Assembly: GCF_042100115.1 (NCBI RefSeq)
Contig: NC_091272.1
Span: forward strand, 4,340,001-4,404,000
Direction of reading: 5' to 3'
DNA from: Alternaria dauci
Taxonomy: Eukaryota; Ascomycota; Dothideomycetes; Pleosporales; Pleosporaceae
DNA: 64,000 nt
Numbering within the stretch: position 1 is the first letter of the stretch; each line of letters begins with the position of its first letter. The notes under the pieces were generated by a model. That model did not search any database. It saw only the letters and a list, made by a program, of their open reading frames with translations, and had not been told where the DNA came from. Position numbers and translations under genes: made by a program. This document shows positions 20,555 through 33,902 of the stretch, in pieces.

Positions 20555-23330
20555 TGGTGCGGTTATTTTCTGCCCACCCCCACCCCGCGCTTTTGCTCGC
20601 GACTCGGCGGCCTGGGCAGATCATGGCTTCATGGGATAGTGTGCTCGGCGGCATCGCGGAACCCGAACATCATTACGTAGATGAACTTGGCTCTTTGTCC
20701 GCTACGCCGAGCGGAATACTTGCTTTTTTGAGCTGTGCATGGTACTGTTTGCCTGTGCTCGAGACGAATTCGCGATTCGTGTAAAAGGCGGATTGCACAT
20801 GGCATGAGTCGTACGTGTTGCGATTACTGATCCTTTGGTTGGGGGCTCAGTTTAGGTCGAACGGGTGGGATGAGCAGGTGTGTGTGAACAAGGGTTGAGG
20901 GAGGCATGGGGATGACGAGGTGATGTAAGATGTAAGACATGTCGATAGTTACCTAAGTGGGGAGTTGAGGTTATGCCACTAGGAAAATGTTACCTCGTAG
21001 CGTATGATAGAACGAGGGCTTGGGTTACCTTATTTGGTCTGCAAGGTACCCGGGTAAGACGGAGAGGAAGCGGGGATGTAACATGAAGATTGGCTGGAAC
21101 GCCTTGCTGTTTGGTCATGTATACGCTGTGTCTGTAGTTGTAAAGAGCTGGGAAACATATGAAGATGACTTTGCATATTTCCTAGGTAGTATGGATGCAT
21201 TGATATAACGAATAGTACGGGCTTAGTTGACAATTGCAGCTCTAGGCGCGAAGCAATGTCACCTGTTGTTGTGTAAAGATTTTTGCTAACAGTATACCTA
21301 GGTGCAAGGGAGAGATAAAAGACGTTCTTAGCTATGCGAGATCATATACAAAGAGTCGTTGACCGTATGGACCTATCCTCGTAGCTCGTTGATCACCTCA
21401 GGATTGGCAAGAAACGCTGCATCGGATATCAATGTGACGAGATGACCAGGAAACAAGCTGGGATATTCTGGTACTCGTGCAGCTTTCACTAACAAGGACT
21501 GAAAACAACGAAGCGTAAATTCTCGAGAGTTTCACTGCCATCTCGTAGCTTATTCCGGCTCAGGTACGAAAACAGGGTAAAGTCTTCCTTTGTCTAGGTC
21601 ATGGACTGTTAGTGGTGGATTGTTCTATGCTAAGATCTATTTTTGTATTCATTACGAATGTTCTAGGACAGGATGCTCATCTCGCCCTTTTGTGTCGTAT
21701 TTTAACCACATTCGTCTTTTCTACCATCCGTTTGACATCCATGTGCAAAGAATTCAAGCATCTAGCTATTCCAGATTTGGAAATCGCCTCGCGGCACGAT
21801 AAGAAATGGAATGTAGACTAAGGAGCGGAGCTGCGGGATAGGGACTGCGGCTGTGGATCTGACGATACGAGATGGGTCCCTTTAGGCCCAAGATAGATAG
21901 GATGATAGAATGCTTCGCGGTTCTATTCACCAAGCACATACAGAGCGGTATTTCATGAAAGCGACACCGGGAAAAGAAGAAAAAGGCTATCTTTGTGTTT
22001 GTGCACAGCGTGGATCTAAATGCTGAATGGTAGGTTGTGTGAGGTACAATTTAGAATCCGAGGAGGGCATAGGAAAGAGATAGAACTGTGAGGAATGTGC
22101 TTGAAGAAGTGATGGAAATTCCAGAATATGCCCGAAGTGCAAGCCAAGATCTGAATTCGTATGAGATGTGTCGATGACTTTGCAGACTAGGGTGCAGGAT
22201 GGCTTCCAAGGCTTCCTGGGCACGGTGTACCACTCTTGCTAATGCGCCTCAAGATGGTCGTGGCTTGCTGCGCCATATGCACTGCTGTGTCAACGTTATT
22301 GTGATGTCAAGTTCTCGGCTGTAAGATAAAACGATTTAGAGCTATTGCTCTGCTCGCATTTTAGATATGGCTGCTCTACATTACCTAGGTGTGCTCCACC
22401 ACAGGTCTGGACCATGACAACAAATAAACATCTGTCATACACGACGCTCAAACCAACAAAGGCAAATACAACCATGGGCGGAAAGACGATGGAGGATGCG
22501 CCGACGGCGAGTGCGAGGTAGTTTGTTGATGGAAAGCTGCACGCAAATCAGCCAGGCTCCGAGGACAATCGCGCACGCGAGCGCTCCGAACGATAAGATT
22601 CAGACGAGTCGTCCTCTCTATCTCAGCTGGATAGTTCGCGCATGTCTAGATATGCTCAGTGAGGTAATTCACATGCATACTCGACAGTAGCGCAACGTCG
22701 CGATCCGGGTGTGTCGGAGATGACTGAATCACGAACCATTCCTTGCCAATGGGATTGCTTCCGATGCGCATTACAATGGTACGATCATCGCCACGCACCC
22801 CAAGTTGCCCGACCGCCTCGTTCTTACCAGACTACGCCCACGGCCCGCCGTTGCGAATGGAAGGTGCGGGCAGAGTTCGCAGTAAACATGGCAACGAGAG
22901 CAGCGGAGACCCTGACAACATGCTGGCTCGGGAAATGAGCCATGACAGTGCCCTCTTGCACCACAAAATCCCGTGAAAAGCTGCAGACTCTGGACAAACA
23001 TTCCCGCATCTGGGCAATTCGTCGCACAGAAACTCCACACGGCGCAGGAAGATTATGCCCACCCCTCGTTAGTCCCCCGACGCTTTGCTGCATCGCTGCA
23101 AGCTGCCCGATATCGCCATGCGCCGAGATGCGCCAGTGACGGCAGAGGCCCAGCTGCTCGCCCCACTCTGGCAGCCCGAGCCGACGACTGTAAGATCGCA
23201 GCCGCGGCGAGACAAAGTCGACAAATACAACGAAGTCAAGCACCTGGAATACGATAATGACATCTCGTCTTTAGCGCTGGGATTTGTTCCGTTTCCCTTT
23301 ACCTCTGGCGGTGGCATCACATACAACACA

Positions 23331-24999
23331 ATGGACGCCCCGGAAGCGCGCAGGTTCTCCACGAGTACGGCTGAGCGCGTCGGCTTGCTCAAGTCGCACG
23401 ATAACGCGGCGAAGCAGCGTCAGTATGGCGCAATCCCGGATCCTTCTGAGATTGAGAGTTTGCTGGGAGGAGAGGGGACGACAGAAGAGCTGGGAACGAC
23501 GGCGGGACAGGAAGCCAGGTTGCTGCTAAAGTACAGCGTTCCGCTTATGGGGACGTACCTACTGCAGTACTCATTCAGCCTGGTCACCATATTCGTCGTC
23601 GGACATAGTAAGTACCCAGAACAGAGAGTCTTTCGGACACAAGCTGACTGATATTGCCTATAGTCGGGACGGATGAGCTTGGTGCGGTATCTCTGGCTAC
23701 GATGACCGCCAACATCACCGGACTCGCAGTCTACGAGGGACTGGCCACGTCCTTGGATACTCTCTGCGCGCAAGCCTATGGTTCCGGAAAGAAGACGATG
23801 GTGGGCCTCCATCTTCAGCGCATGATACTCTTCATGCTGGCTGTTACCATCCCTATTGCAGCGATCTGGCTATGTTCTGGTTGGATCCTCGCAGCTCTCG
23901 TTCCGGAAAAAGCAATCGCGCATCTTGCCGGATACTACCTCTCTCTACTTCTTGCCGGAGCACCGGGCTACGCCATCTTTGAGGCCGGCAAGCGGTTTAC
24001 GCAAGCCCAGGGCCTTTTCAACGCTTCACTTTTCGTCCTACTTATCGCGACGCCCATAAACATAGCTTTGAACTATGTTTTCGTCTTTGTTCTGGATTGG
24101 GATTTGACGGGAGCTGCACTTGCGACTGTCATCTCCAATAACCTCCTACCGCTGTTGCTCTGGATTTACGTATACTTTGTCAATCCGTCTTCGCTGGAAT
24201 GCTGGGGTGGCTTCACCAAAGCTGCTTTTACGAATTGGGGACCCATGGCCAAACTGGCTGTCCCGGGTATCGTCATGGTGGAGACGGAGTGGCTGGCTTT
24301 TGTACGTTCTGCATTGTGCATTGACGAATATCGAGTACATGCTAATTTTTCTACAGGACATTCTTACATTCTCCACAAGCTATCTTTCCACAGCCCATTT
24401 GGCGGCGCAGTCGATGTAAGAACTACTCCTTCTTAACGTATTCAGCAAATGTTAACATCCACAGCGTCATGACACTCGCAGTAGCTATTTACCACGTACC
24501 TTTTTCGGTCGGCGTGGCTGTATCAACACGCTTGGGCAACCTAATCGGCGCGGGTTCCCTCTCCGCAGCCCGCACCGCTACAAAAACGTATATATTGACC
24601 TTCCTCGCCATCGGTCTCATCGACTTTGCATTCTTGACCGCTTGTCGAAATATCCTTCCCAAAGCCTTTACCAGCGATCCGGAAGTCGTCAGCATAGTAG
24701 CCACCGTACTGCCCCTACTTGCCGCGTTCCAATTCGCCGACTCCACCACCGCACTAGTGAATGCACTGCTCCGTGGCTTGGGTAAGCAAAATATCGGGGG
24801 TTGGTGTAACCTTTTTGTGTACTATATTATTGCTGTGCCATTGGCACTTTTCCTTTGTTTCAAACAGGATATGAAGTTGGTGGGTCTTTGGACTGGATGT
24901 GCAGTTGGCTCGAGCTGCATCACGATAACGGAGGGTATTTACATGAAGTTCTATAATTGGGCTCAGGCGATTGATGATGCGCGGGACAGGCAAGAGTAG
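23331..24999 (+). CDS. MATE-family multidrug/toxin efflux transporter
   Basis: Twelve-helix antiporter of the MATE (MatE) family, expected to export organic cations or drugs by cation exchange at the plasma or vacuolar membrane. Four exons: 23331-23607, 23664-24301, 24357-24415, 24465-24999, 502 aa. Diagnostic pieces are YSVPLMGTYLLQYSFSLV, VVGHIGTDELGAVSLATM (restored by the first splice), GLATSLDTLCAQAYGSG, and AVSTRLGNLIGAG in the second half. The 59-nt third exon restores DILTFSTSYLSTAHLAAQSIVMTLAV in two pieces. I chose the ATG at 23331 because of its CACAATGG context. The frame stays open upstream to 23085, so a longer N-terminus is possible. Converges on the RTA1 gene. Confidence 0.93.
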
Positions 25000-29383: not shown

Positions 29384-30931
29384 TCACTGCTCGTCGTCTT
29401 CCTCTTCCTCTTCTAGATCGGTCCGCTCAACAATCAGATTACCGCTCCGTCCAATACGCTCTTTAATTGTACCACCAATCTTGAGCTCATATACCTCGCG
29501 CGGCATAGGGCTGACCAGTTGGAACTTGTACTCATGCTCGAAATCTGTTGGTTTCTCCACTTTCTCCTGTAGGCCTTTTTCAGATTGCAGGATATCGTAG
29601 CATTCAACGAATGCATAGAGTTCCTCGATGTGTGTATCTGCGGCGAACTTGCGAACCACACGCTCGGCATTTGGCATACGAAGACTGATGCGCACAATGT
29701 CCTTGTCGTCGGGCCCGGGCTCAGAGCGTATAGATGCAGCACGCCATTGCCTCCATTGAGCGAGATTTTGTGCGTATCGTTCGATGGCTTGTTCGCGTTC
29801 GAGTGCTTCCTTTTCTTCTCGAGCTTTGCGCTCTGCCTCCTCCTTCTTCTTGCGGGCCTTCTCCCGGTCCGCTGCCAGTGAGCGTTCATATGCGCTGTTT
29901 TGTTGTTCTCGGATGCTTCGTGTCGCTTGTTGTTCCACGCGCTGGCTCCGCACGCGATTGAGCGGCTCCGTGTGTTGCTGCATTGCCTGTCGCAATTTGG
30001 CAATGTACTGTTGTGGGGGCGTCGGACCAGCTACACGCGCCGCGATTCCCATAGCTGTTGACGAAACCTGGGGTGTGTGTACGATCAGACCGGTAAAAGG
30101 GAACTTGGTGCACGACAGGGCAGCGGAAACTTGGTATGCTTCGGAATCTTGCACGTTGCCAGCCCAAAGTATGATGTTGTTCTCGGGGTTTCGTACAAAC
30201 TCGACGACCTCTGGTGAGAGGAGTGTGTCCCGTACGAAAGATGATGTCTCGTCATGCTCTGGGCTGACCAGGACAACCATCAAGAACTGTAGGTTTTTCT
30301 TCGCCAGATCAAAGGCTTGTGCGTATCCGCTCTCGAAGAACGGCAGGTTGTGGCTTCCATATTCCTCCTCGAATTCGCGGATGAAACGCGCCGCTGTGTC
30401 TCGTGGGTTCAGAGGTCGGCGTCCGCTTGCGCTGCGCTGAGAGGTGGGTGTTCTGATGTTGCTAGCTGTAACCCTCCCCCATGCGCGCGGCAGGAAGGGG
30501 AAGATCCATCCCAATAACCGGAAGGATTTTGCAAATAGCGAGTAGACCAGCGAGAACGGCGCAAAGAAAATGGCCAGCACTAGCGGAACTTGTGTGCTGA
30601 CTTGGCTTTCTGGCTGCGGGACCACTCTCGGGGCAGGTTCTATCCGCACTCTCCTCCCACTACTTGTTGATGATCGCGGTGAGGCAAGACCATTAAGTAG
30701 TGTCTCCTGTCGGCGGGTGTCTTGGGGCGGTGGTAGCTGGGCGGCAGCAGCAGCGACCGGATCTTCGGTCGGTTCGCCGTCGAAGAAGCGCGTCACCGCT
30801 ATATTGACGTTCCATTGCGCGCGTTGGAGCAACGGTATCGCATCAGAGGTCGGTTGGTCGGTAACGGCGGTGTATTGTTGAAGGGCGGCTTGCTGGTCGG
30901 CTGTGAGAGATGCGATGTCCGTATCCGCCAT
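29384..30931 (-). CDS. UBX-domain ERAD adaptor, Ubx2/FAF2-like
   Basis: Single exon, 515 aa. Layout matches FAF2/UBXD8 and fungal Ucp10: a UBA-like domain (about 8-52, WNVNIAVTRFFDG), and a hydrophobic hairpin (115-148, LVLAIFFAPFSLVYSLFAKS then LLGWIFPFLP) that inserts into ER or lipid-droplet membrane. A UAS thioredoxin-like domain follows (about 180-325, KKNLQFLMVVLVSPEHDE, NNIILWAGNV), then a charged coiled coil (about 335-390) and a C-terminal UBX domain (about 405-495, ISLRMPNAERVVRKF). These proteins recruit Cdc48/p97 to ubiquitylated substrates in ER-associated degradation. The acidic tail ends EEEEEDDEQ. Membrane-bound role is inferred from the hairpin. Confidence 0.94.
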   Translation of the reverse strand: MADTDIASLTADQQAALQQYTAVTDQPTSDAIPLLQRAQWNVNIAVTRFFDGEPTEDPVAAAAAQLPPPQDTRRQETLLNGLASPRSSTSSGRRVRIEPAPRVVPQPESQVSTQVPLVLAIFFAPFSLVYSLFAKSFRLLGWIFPFLPRAWGRVTASNIRTPTSQRSASGRRPLNPRDTAARFIREFEEEYGSHNLPFFESGYAQAFDLAKKNLQFLMVVLVSPEHDETSSFVRDTLLSPEVVEFVRNPENNIILWAGNVQDSEAYQVSAALSCTKFPFTGLIVHTPQVSSTAMGIAARVAGPTPPQQYIAKLRQAMQQHTEPLNRVRSQRVEQQATRSIREQQNSAYERSLAADREKARKKKEEAERKAREEKEALEREQAIERYAQNLAQWRQWRAASIRSEPGPDDKDIVRISLRMPNAERVVRKFAADTHIEELYAFVECYDILQSEKGLQEKVEKPTDFEHEYKFQLVSPMPREVYELKIGGTIKERIGRSGNLIVERTDLEEEEEDDEQ

Positions 30932-31868
30932 TTTGGCTCCGCAACCAATATAGTTTTTGGCGGGAAGATTCGGTTGTGGAAGATTAGATCTTTAACGTGT
31001 ACGGGTGATGTATACCATCGGAAAGGACTGTAAGATGACAGCGTAGTGTAGGGTGAAAGTACTGGTGTACGTGTTGCCTGGCCTTTGCTGCGATGATGTA
31101 GCGGTGGTCGGAGCTTTCCCTTGAACTAACCGCGGGACAAGGGTGAGGCTAACCTTGGAATCCTCAACCATGGCCACACAGCACTACCAAACCGTATAGT
31201 TGACAGATCGGCACATTTTCAGTTCTCCCTGTCCGACAGGAATATTGCAGGCAGCAAAGTTTCTCATCTGGTAACGTTGTTGCTACGCGACAAGTTCCGG
31301 AACCATGTTCGTAGACTTGCGTCCGTTGGCCTTCTAACATTTGCAATGCTACCTATGTATCTGACACAATGGATCGCGCACGATCACCAATCTTAGAATA
31401 AGGCTACGAGTCTATGATGGTTATACGCAAGACTTGGCACCATATTTACAGGGTATCTTGTCTATATCTATGGCTGGGCGCATTCGCACGAGACAAGACG
31501 TGATGTTCTGAAATGGAATCATGAACCAAGACATAGAGTCGTCTATGTTAAAGATTTGAGATATCCTGATCTCGAGGAATCAACGCGGACGGCGGACGAA
31601 TTGCATACGATCCGTCTATAAGGGTAGAGAAATGACTGCATTCGTGGCCGCTGACCGGGTAGGCTCGTCTTCGGCAGAAGCCAGTAGCTAGTGCGACCAG
31701 AAAGAACAATGAGCTCGGCAAATATCAAGATGCTTCCCCGCACATACTACCGGCATGACAACGACACGCAGGCAGCGCATGAACAAGCTTCCAGGCATGG
31801 GATGCTGCCAAAACAATGTGAAATATAATAGATCTGCACGCTCATTTAATCATATTCAGCGTATCAAC
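30932..31868. other. Intergenic region upstream of tRNA-Thr
   Basis: 937 bp between the UBX start and the tRNA gene. No coding frame is convincing and no second tRNA was found. Confidence 0.5.
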
Positions 31869-31879
31869 GCCCGTTTGGC

Positions 31880-31931
31880 GTAAGTTAACCAATACGACGT
31901 TATCTGAGCAGCATTAACTAACGACATGCAG
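31880..31931 (+). other. Predicted 52-nt GT-AG intron inside tRNA-Thr
   Basis: 5' splice site GTAAGT (perfect to fungal consensus), branch site CTAAC with the A 10 nt before the AG, and 3' splice site CAG. Length 52 nt compares with 44-64 nt for many protein-gene introns here, such as 50 nt in SDA1 intron 1. Only this GT-AG choice gives the perfect GCC/GGC D stem. Confidence 0.8.
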
Positions 31932-31970
31932 CAAGCGGTAAGGCGTCGCACTTGTAATGCGAAGATCACT

Positions 31971-31981
31971 CGTTCGATTCG
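31971..31981 (+). promoter_or_regulatory. Pol III B box of tRNA-Thr
   Basis: CGTTCGATTCG matches the B-box core GTTCGANTC within the T arm. The A box (TGGCCAAGCGG in the spliced tRNA) is split by the intron. Confidence 0.85.
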
Positions 31982-31992
31982 GGTAATGGGCA

Positions 31993-32614
31993 CAGAAATG
32001 ATGTTGATCGTGTCGATCAGGATTTCCTGATTTTCCATCAAATTTTTTTTCGTCTTCACAACTGCTTGGCTGTGCTCTAGCGAAGGCTCTGCTGAGATTA
32101 TCTCTCCGTCCTTGAGTAAGTAAGGTTGTAGTTACAACCATAGCCGAGCTAAAGGGAAGTCAGCACATGCTTTTTGACTTATTAGCATTAGGAGAAAGAT
32201 ACATCACAGCAGAAATCTCACATTATTGACCGCCCTATCAACTGACGTATAATGATGGAAAGGTTTAGATGAGATAGAAGGTATTTATAGTAGTGCATGA
32301 TAGCTGTGTAGAGGACTAGAGATTAATTTTCAAGATACAATGTGCAGGCGTTTACCGACAACTCTTCGATGTCAATCAATAACTCTGAAAAAAAATTCAC
32401 ACATGATGAATCCCTTTGCAACAAATAGCCCGTCATCTCGTGATTTTCCACCGAGCATACCTACATAAATATGCGATAGACAAAACTTTGACGTGACAAC
32501 AAAAGCACTACACAAAACGATGTACCAAGGAATCAAGGTGAGGTGAGGTTAGGCTTATCACGCTTTCTATTCTGACCACTATAGATAAGTTACATAGGAG
32601 CAGGTAGGCATGGT
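31993..32614. other. AT-rich intergenic flank after tRNA-Thr
   Basis: Contains two overlapping hairpins just 3' of the tRNA, then T-runs, and further AT-rich sequence up to the apple-like protein gene. No open frame is convincing. Confidence 0.5.
32043..32050 (+). terminator. Pol III terminator T8 downstream of tRNA-Thr
   Basis: Eight consecutive T residues, 51 nt after the tRNA 3' end. A weaker T4 lies at 32031-32034. Either could end the Pol III transcript. Confidence 0.65.
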
Positions 32615-33535
32615 CTAGACTCTAAATCCCATAACCACCGCTATCAAGAACGGCAGCGCAGCACCCACGACAAACCTCTCCATCAACGCTGCAACCATAT
32701 CCAGCTTAGCACTCTTCTCACCCTCAGAAGTCTTGACATCCTCCTCATACTCTTTTTGCTTCTCAGCACCCAGAACATATCCGTTGCTTCCCGCGATAAC
32801 AACTTCAAAATCCCAATTCTTGTACCCTGTGTTCGTCGCACCGTCTTTCCGCATGTTGCCCTCACCCCAAAGTGCACATTTGATGATGGTGCGACTATCC
32901 GCGTCCTGGCACCGCTCTCCCAGATTGATCGATGGGGAGCGCTCAAAATAGATGTTGAAGCTGTTGCACATTTGCGCGCGTGGCGTGGGCGTGCTGGTAG
33001 GTATAGTGGAGGAACCAGATTCATCTGGGAATAGGGTGGTCGAGGTAACCTCTGGCTCAAATTCCATGCCAGATGCCCCCCACATGCGACATTTACTCGC
33101 ACACTCGGTTGGACTGTATGTTTCCAGTTCGTGGTATCCGAGGTAGTTGGTACCGACGTACGATGCATTCGCCGCGCGAAAAGCGCGGGCATAGTCAGGG
33201 GGTGTGGTAGCTTCTAGAGCGGGAGTGCGAATTAGGGGAGATGTGTAAAAGGACGACGCGTTGTCTTCTTCTGGGACAGGACCGTAGCCTGGGGCTTGGG
33301 GGCGACAGTCGCCTTGGGTGTTCTGGATGGGCTTGGATGGGAGAGTTTGGAGACTCCCGACACTTGTGAGGATGCTGCTGGTGGAATTTGTAGAGGCGGT
33401 TGGTAACGAAATGGTGGATGTCACTGTCGCGATTACCGGAGTAGCCGTGGTGGTGATCATCATGCCTGTGAAGGTAGATATGTTGGCAACGTTGAGCGTT
33501 GCTGCTAACACACCTAGTGAGGTCGTATTTAGCAT
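32615..33535 (-). CDS. Apple/PAN-like surface protein with hydrophobic C-terminus
   Basis: Single exon, 306 aa. The N-terminal 60 residues are Thr/Ser-rich, wall-protein-like, without a clear classical signal peptide, so the true start could lie in an unrecognised upstream exon. Residues about 120-235 have a Cys pattern (YSPTECASKCRMWGASGMEF ... QMCNSFNIYFERSPSI ... ERCQDADSRTIIKCALWG) like fungal apple/PAN-type carbohydrate- or protein-binding modules. The tail ends in a short hydrophobic run (ALPFLIAVVMGFRV) that could be a GPI-attachment signal. Extracellular location and adhesion or carbohydrate binding are inference. Confidence 0.72.
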   Translation of the reverse strand: MLNTTSLGVLAATLNVANISTFTGMMITTTATPVIATVTSTISLPTASTNSTSSILTSVGSLQTLPSKPIQNTQGDCRPQAPGYGPVPEEDNASSFYTSPLIRTPALEATTPPDYARAFRAANASYVGTNYLGYHELETYSPTECASKCRMWGASGMEFEPEVTSTTLFPDESGSSTIPTSTPTPRAQMCNSFNIYFERSPSINLGERCQDADSRTIIKCALWGEGNMRKDGATNTGYKNWDFEVVIAGSNGYVLGAEKQKEYEEDVKTSEGEKSAKLDMVAALMERFVVGAALPFLIAVVMGFRV

Positions 33536-33902
33536 TTTGATGTATTTGAGTTAAAGAATAGTGAAGTCGAATGGTGTGCGAAAACTGTTTTCGTGCTCCG
33601 TTGTTGTCGTTGTATGGTAGCGAACGGGTGGCTGTGTATCCTACATCACCACTTAGACGCTTGGATTACAAGACCCATAACCACCGTGTGAGTGGGTTCC
33701 AGTGCGACCGAAAAGTATTCGTACTTGCACTCTTAGGTTTCTCAGTCTGTTGCGCTAATCTTGAATCGCTTACTTGGTCGTTCACATCGCCGACAGCCTA
33801 CTATAGACAGTCACATCATCCCTGAACGCACTCTGACCTGTCAACACCCGTCAGCAAGCCGAACAAGTCAAAGCTCTACTAGGACAAGCAAGAGCCTAGA
33901 CA
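33536..33902. other. Intergenic spacer
   Basis: 367 bp between two minus-strand genes. No gene seen. Confidence 0.5.

Follow-up and report, generated by a model that had tools for sequence, protein, structure and literature searches.

The splicing of tRNA is taught as independent of the spliceosome. The locus described here raises the question whether a nuclear tRNA gene can nevertheless carry an intron of the mRNA type. We analyzed a window of 64,000 nucleotides (G000:C1:4340001-4404000) from a genome of 34.9 Mb in 10 contigs; coordinates below are those of the window unless a contig is named. On its plus strand, a gene for tRNA-Thr(UGU) at 31869-31992 is split into an 11-nt exon, a 52-nt GT-AG segment, and a 61-nt exon. 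The 5' exon (GCCCGTTTGGC, 31869..31879) provides the 5' strand of the acceptor stem as well as T8, G9, G10, and C11. The 3' exon (31932..31992) extends from tRNA nucleotide 12 to the discriminator A. It contains the anticodon TGT (UGU) at 31953..31955, with no intron at position 37/38, and an intact B box (GTTCGATTC, 31972..31980), and the A box is the element cut by the intron. An earlier note on this DNA had described these letters and coordinates, with an 11-nt exon 52 nt upstream of the tRNA body and a joined length of 72 nt, and all of them were found in place.

The split tRNA gene is flanked by a gene for a UBX-domain protein (ORF 29384-30991, minus strand), which starts about 0.9 kb away, and by a minus-strand ORF at 32615-33550, with which shorter plus-strand ORFs near the locus (e.g., 32585-33034, 149 aa) overlap. 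The UBX protein shares 88-89% identity with proteins of Clathrospora elynae, Pyrenophora teres f. maculata, and Bipolaris sorokiniana, and 90% identity over 83% of the query with a protein of Alternaria alternata; the best match reached 94%. These identities suggest a fungus of the Pleosporaceae, perhaps Alternaria or a close genus. Further upstream (23073-24999, plus strand), ORF pieces joined by typical short introns have the look of a multi-spanning membrane transporter, MATE-like by eye.

When the two exons are joined, the resulting 72 nt form a complete cloverleaf with a UGU anticodon, T8, A14, and GG. All 20 pairs are present, with 3/3 in the D stem, 5/5 in the anticodon stem, 5/5 in the T stem, and 7/7 in the acceptor stem (one of them G.U), so that the repair of the acceptor and D stems by removal of the GT-AG segment, as claimed in the earlier note, is borne out. 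The GCC...GGCA ends of the joined exons are shared with the second tRNA-Thr(UGU) gene of this genome (L032, see below) and with tRNA-Thr(AGU). ARAGORN identified the joined exons as tRNA-Thr(UGU) and reported no tRNA in the intact DNA of the locus. The Rfam tRNA model gave a partial match at 31930-31984 (model positions 9-63 of 71), with 26.8 bits against a gathering score of 29. For the joined RNA, the predicted minimum-energy fold (-21.9 kcal/mol) matches the cloverleaf exactly; the fold predicted for the unspliced RNA differs from it. Neither energy was better than those of shuffled sequences, and the z-scores are uninformative either way.

Could such an arrangement be a product of chance? 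We searched the window and the fetched nuclear loci on both strands for 13-mers able to form all nine required pairs with the 3' body. They occurred at 33 of 274,960 positions; 12 of these also had T8, and only one was in addition followed by GT. As this sole fit is the real 5' exon, a chance assembly of the 5' exon was ruled out. The boundaries of the insert were assessed by removing each of 1595 segments (starts 31865-31904, ends 31905-31945) and ranking the products by our own score for pairs and conserved bases, with the tRNA start fixed at 31869. ARAGORN accepted 318 of the 1595 products as tRNAs. The single best excision was the GT-AG segment 31880-31931, which yields 7/7 acceptor pairs, 3/3 D-stem pairs, T8, A14, and GG, and no better-fitting alternative was found among those tried. 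The tRNA by itself thus fixes the boundaries, which coincide with GT and AG. The split-gene anatomy at 31869-31992 is real and more than chance.

The insert itself (31880..31931, plus strand, 52 nt) reads as an mRNA-type (U2-type spliceosomal) intron between tRNA nucleotides 11 and 12. Its GT and AG ends fall exactly on the exon junctions, as in U2-type introns. It has the donor GTAAGT (31880..31885), the branch-site motif CTAAC (31918..31922), and the acceptor CAG (31929..31931), with a spacing of 10 nt between the branch A at 31921 and the last G at 31931. The anticodon loop is uninterrupted, and the insert is thus no canonical 37/38 tRNA intron; its position outside 37/38 had been recognized correctly before. 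According to the earlier note, GTAAGT, CTAAC, CAG, and the 10-nt spacing resemble the introns of protein genes. We agree with this. For comparison, since a coding-score intron finder returned only 4 introns, long ORFs were joined instead. These joins were ranked by the same motifs as the insert, so the comparison shows consistency: with its donor, branch site, acceptor, spacing of 10, and length of 52, the insert reached a motif score of 9.5, level with the highest of the 160 right-phase candidates. Joins in the wrong phases served as a control. Scores of at least 7.5 were obtained for 19/160 right-phase joins versus 5/151 and 7/152 in the wrong phases, and scores of at least 8.5 for 8 versus 3 and 3, and perhaps about one third of the high-scoring joins are false. 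In 275,610 bases, the chain GTAAGT..CTRAY..YAG, confined to 75 nt, occurred 10 times, the insert included.

Other kinds of insertion were considered as well. The ribozyme core of group I and group II introns measures well over 150 nt, and a self-splicing intron was rejected on the size of the insert. In Dothideomycetes, new introns known as introner-like elements occur in repeated copies. When 1201 bases spanning the locus were compared with the genome at E values up to 1, they matched only themselves, although short diverged copies could escape such a search; a multi-copy mobile or introner-like element was rejected because no other genomic copy of the locus was found. A search of 31700-32100 with Rfam at E values up to 1 yielded nothing beyond the partial tRNA and a sub-threshold match to mir-320. 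Exact patterns of the tRNA body had no match in viral contigs or in bacterial and archaeal genomes, and a plasmid search for the split tRNA gave no match either, as expected for a fungus.

To judge the transcription signals, we used 20 nuclear tRNA genes found by ARAGORN in the fetched loci as a comparison set, which includes several copies of the same isotype and one boundary trimmed by hand. Upstream of the split gene lie a TATA-like TATAAT (31824..31829, plus strand, -45 from the tRNA start) and a start-site-like TCAAC (31864..31868, plus strand) directly 5' of the 5' exon, at -5. A perfect TATAWW within -60..-15 was present in 10/20 nuclear tRNA genes (at -32 to -57) versus 1.4% of the sampled window positions, and its combination with CAA in -8..-1 in 5/20 genes versus 0.12% of 18,230 sampled window positions, a null that was unmatched for A+T content. 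CAA within 20 nt upstream was found in 16/20 genes. The stretch upstream of the 3' body has neither a TATA-like nor a TCAAC-type element. Both elements precede the 5' exon and not the 3' body, which means that the 5' exon sits at the place where a tRNA gene would be expected to start.

The internal and downstream signals are less regular. The A box, whose consensus we take to be TRGCNNAR..GG, is divided into TGGC and, behind the insert, AAGCGG. The donor GTAA behind TGGC restores TRGCNNAR, so the first half of the A box and GTAA stay in place. Downstream, a weak terminator-like TTTT lies at 32031..32034 (plus strand, +39), and a T8 run resembling a Pol III terminator at 32043..32050 (plus strand). 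No run of at least five T precedes the latter, which lies at +51, whereas such a run is present at +1 to +29 in all 20 other tRNA genes. From these signals, the use of the split gene by Pol III appears likely. The trailer before the T8 run (31993-32050) is unusually long. It contains a box C-like ATGATGT and a box D-like CTGA flanked by GAAA/TTTC; a C/D snoRNA was dropped by eye, as the boxes are too close together and the stretch is too short.

The earlier note had suggested checking whether this is the only tRNA-Thr(UGU) gene of the genome. It is not. A second one, L032, is located at G000:C2:292163-292231 on the minus strand (53.1 bits). By our own reading of its letters, it carries a 12-nt insert that is an ordinary 37/38 (anticodon-loop) intron; ARAGORN places this insert elsewhere and mislabels the gene as tRNA-Ser(AGA). 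Acceptor pair 4-69 (standard numbering) of L032 is a T-T mismatch, while the joined split copy has all 20 pairs intact. The earlier note had named other intact tRNA-Thr(UGU) genes, together with missing spliced reads and a silent locus, as signs of a disrupted pseudogene; the point about other genes applies by half, as there is one other gene, L032. No third tRNA-Thr(UGU) gene was found in the genome by DNA search or by a pattern running from the anticodon to the B box, the latter covering genes that carry the exact GTTCRANTC. The pattern had 52 matches, two of which are the split gene and L032. ARAGORN detected no tRNA in the 49 regions holding the other 50, and a third gene among them was rejected on this basis; when stems were counted loosely, with the intron length left free, 8/49 regions reached 4/5 pairs in both stems, which we took as chance. 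Neither the split gene nor L032 was among the 63 of 931 candidates scored in a tRNA family search. In contig C3, a stretch of about 55 kb (G000:C3:3344209-3399162) holds 17 of the 58 tRNA matches listed, together with additional tRNAs and pieces of cox1, most of the latter with in-frame TGA. This is a mitochondrial genome inside the contig, which was either joined to it during assembly or inserted into the nuclear DNA recently as a large piece.

The paralogue allowed us to ask how the split copy has changed. Its exons are identical to L032 at 61 of 72 positions. By simple counting, 10 of the 11 differences fall into five pairs, each changed on both sides: 4-68, 5-67, 6-66, 12-22, and 48-64. 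The first three span the insert and link the 5' exon to the 3' exon. Among 200,000 random derivatives of L032 with 11 changes, none had five two-sided pairs, and only 125 (311 with a transition bias) kept 20/20 pairs. Five paired changes, three of them across the insert, indicate that the joined cloverleaf has been under selection. This selection may have acted before or after the arrival of the intron.

The main rival to a working spliceosomal intron is a recently dead gene: an intact tRNA-Thr(UGU) copy would have been broken by a 52-bp intron-like or intron-derived insertion that is unspliced or untranscribed, with L032 supplying the tRNA. We consider this rather unlikely. The existence of L032 speaks for it, since with a second gene the split locus is not proven essential, its loss could be tolerated, and it could be a recently silenced copy. 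It is also favored by the division of the A box, by the long distance to a T run of at least five, and by the established knowledge that the usual substrates of the spliceosome do not include Pol III transcripts; the paired changes, moreover, may be older than the insertion. A dead gene does not, however, account well for an insert that ends exactly in GT and AG and has the full set of intron signals, or for 20/20 intact pairs after joining, compared to one mismatch (4-69) in L032. The upstream elements are intact, and we saw no target-site duplication flanking the insert, the longest word common to both junctions being 4 nt.

Other ways of removing the insert, or of doing without its removal, seem less likely still. 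The exons could be part of a spliced non-coding Pol II transcript, with excision of the tRNA following ordinary co-transcriptional splicing. No Pol III transcript would then need to be spliced, and the opposite-strand UBX gene, with its start about 0.9 kb off, could drive a divergent transcript. The TATA-like box at -45, TCAAC, the intact B box, and the downstream T8 run fit Pol III instead, and we regard a Pol II origin as very unlikely. Cutting by the tRNA splicing endonuclease and sealing by tRNA ligase, as for tRNA introns of the archaeal or red-algal type, seems highly unlikely to us. Introns outside 37/38 do occur in archaea and Cyanidioschyzon, as a review describes (PMC3978253), and L032 shows that a 37/38-type insert is present in the same genome. 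On the other hand, the structure expected for such cutting, which the earlier note had named as evidence against the spliceosome, was looked for in vain: a bulge-helix-bulge (BHB) is absent from the junctions, with at most 1/4 central pairs, and none qualifies within 8 nt of them. An archaeal-type BHB intron was rejected for this reason, and the set of GTAAGT, CTAAC, and CAG would have to be a coincidence. The same review considers it unlikely that the C. merolae endonuclease cuts elsewhere when it carries its accessory subunits, given that Sen54 of yeast probably contacts both the D arm and the acceptor stem (PMC3978253). Finally, the locus might be a TFIIIC-binding (B-box-only) site or a tRNA relic kept as a chromatin element. 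The intact B box and the merely partial tRNA seen by Rfam would suit this idea, but it explains neither the 5' exon and the changes paired between this exon and the 3' end nor the intron signals, and we think it extremely unlikely.

We therefore favor a real spliceosomal intron in the D arm of a nuclear, Pol III-type tRNA-Thr(UGU) gene, which on the sequence evidence is the probable explanation. The exact GT-AG excision, the splice signals, the lack of a BHB, the upstream elements, and the paired changes across the insertion support the spliceosomal reading of the earlier note. Against it stand the second tRNA-Thr(UGU) gene, the split A box, the late T run, and the predicted fold of the unspliced RNA, which is unlike a cloverleaf; nor is a further split tRNA known from this genome. 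We infer a transcript that would begin just upstream of 31869 and cover exon 1, the intron, and exon 2 as far as one of the T runs (32031 or 32043). Recognition of GTAAGT by U1 and attack by the branch A (31921) would lead, through two transesterifications, to exons joined at 31879/31932 and a standard 72-nt tRNA. RNase P, RNase Z, and CCA addition would finish the tRNA, which would then be used in translation. It is somewhat more likely than its opposite, though less secure than the intron itself, that the spliceosome matures this nuclear tRNA, with pre-mRNA splicing alone uniting the acceptor and D arm of its Pol III precursor, whereas the sister gene for the same anticodon uses the tRNA splicing endonuclease.

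If true, a working spliceosomal tRNA intron would show that the separation between tRNA splicing and mRNA splicing is not complete, and would tie translation capacity to pre-mRNA splicing. It would also offer a clean test of new spliceosomal introns entering genes that do not code for protein. The pair of paralogues, with one intron of each type, makes the question directly testable within one organism. Since both ARAGORN and the Rfam tRNA threshold miss the split gene, more such genes may exist in fungal genomes, and intron-rich fungi may have more tRNA genes than their catalogues list.

How does this gene compare with known systems? The earlier note knew of no established case of a spliceosomal intron in a nuclear tRNA, and we found no earlier report either among the literature matches listed, which cover titles and the starts of abstracts, with few subscription papers and no preprints. 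Messenger-type introns in small structured RNAs are already known; in a tRNA, none was found reported. Genes for rRNA and U2 snRNA are transcribed by Pol I or Pol II and are not tRNA genes. Like the gene described here, ascomycete rDNA and a U2 snRNA gene are reported non-coding hosts of mRNA-type introns, going by titles in the reference list of PMC2586383.

Canonical eukaryotic tRNA introns share with the insert their location in nuclear tRNAs, and L032 has one of 12 nt by our reading. They lie at 37/38 and are cut by the endonuclease, whereas the insert lies at 11/12, is 52 nt long, and has splice and branch signals and no BHB. Ectopic tRNA introns of archaea, Cyanidioschyzon, and nucleomorphs likewise lie outside 37/38, with the D arm among their sites, as stated in PMC3978253. 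Those of archaea and Cyanidioschyzon are BHB-mediated, unlike the intron of the split tRNA, which is without a BHB; many of those in the Guillardia nucleomorph have no defined BHB, and a dimer of catalytic subunits was proposed for cutting at ectopic sites (PMC3978253).

The introns of U3 and U6 offer a further comparison. According to PMC5832005, no other small structured RNAs are known to contain introns frequently; for Alternaria brassicicola, the paper also reports that one of its two U3 genes has an intron. We found two U3 genes in our genome. By eye, a GT-AG intron of 49 nt (gtaatt...cactaacagccgcgcag) seems to interrupt L041 (G000:C10:937193-937414) near the 5' end, with CACTAAC...GCGCAG as its last part just 5' of the conserved TACTTCATAG. 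L040, the second copy, looks intronless, and the Rfam alignments of both genes contain no intron. An intron in L041 and none in L040 would fit the A. brassicicola report (PMC5832005). Fungal U3 introns thus resemble the insert as short GT-AG introns near the 5' end of a structured non-coding RNA, but U3 is not a tRNA. Both full-length U6 copies of this genome (91.7 bits) look intronless, and an mRNA-type intron in U6 was rejected here. Two low-scoring U6-like matches were also noted, L037 (G000:C1:5437718-5437778, 44.4 bits), about 0.2 kb from a full-length U6 copy, and L038 (G000:C4:1141949-1142058, 43.9 bits). In fission yeast, an mRNA-type intron is spliced out of U6, and reverse splicing near the catalytic nucleotides was proposed as the origin of U6 introns (PMC10484740). 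The U6 introns of fission yeast and other fungi covered there are likewise of the mRNA type and interrupt a small structured Pol III product (PMC10484740); their host is a spliceosomal RNA, whereas here the host is a tRNA.
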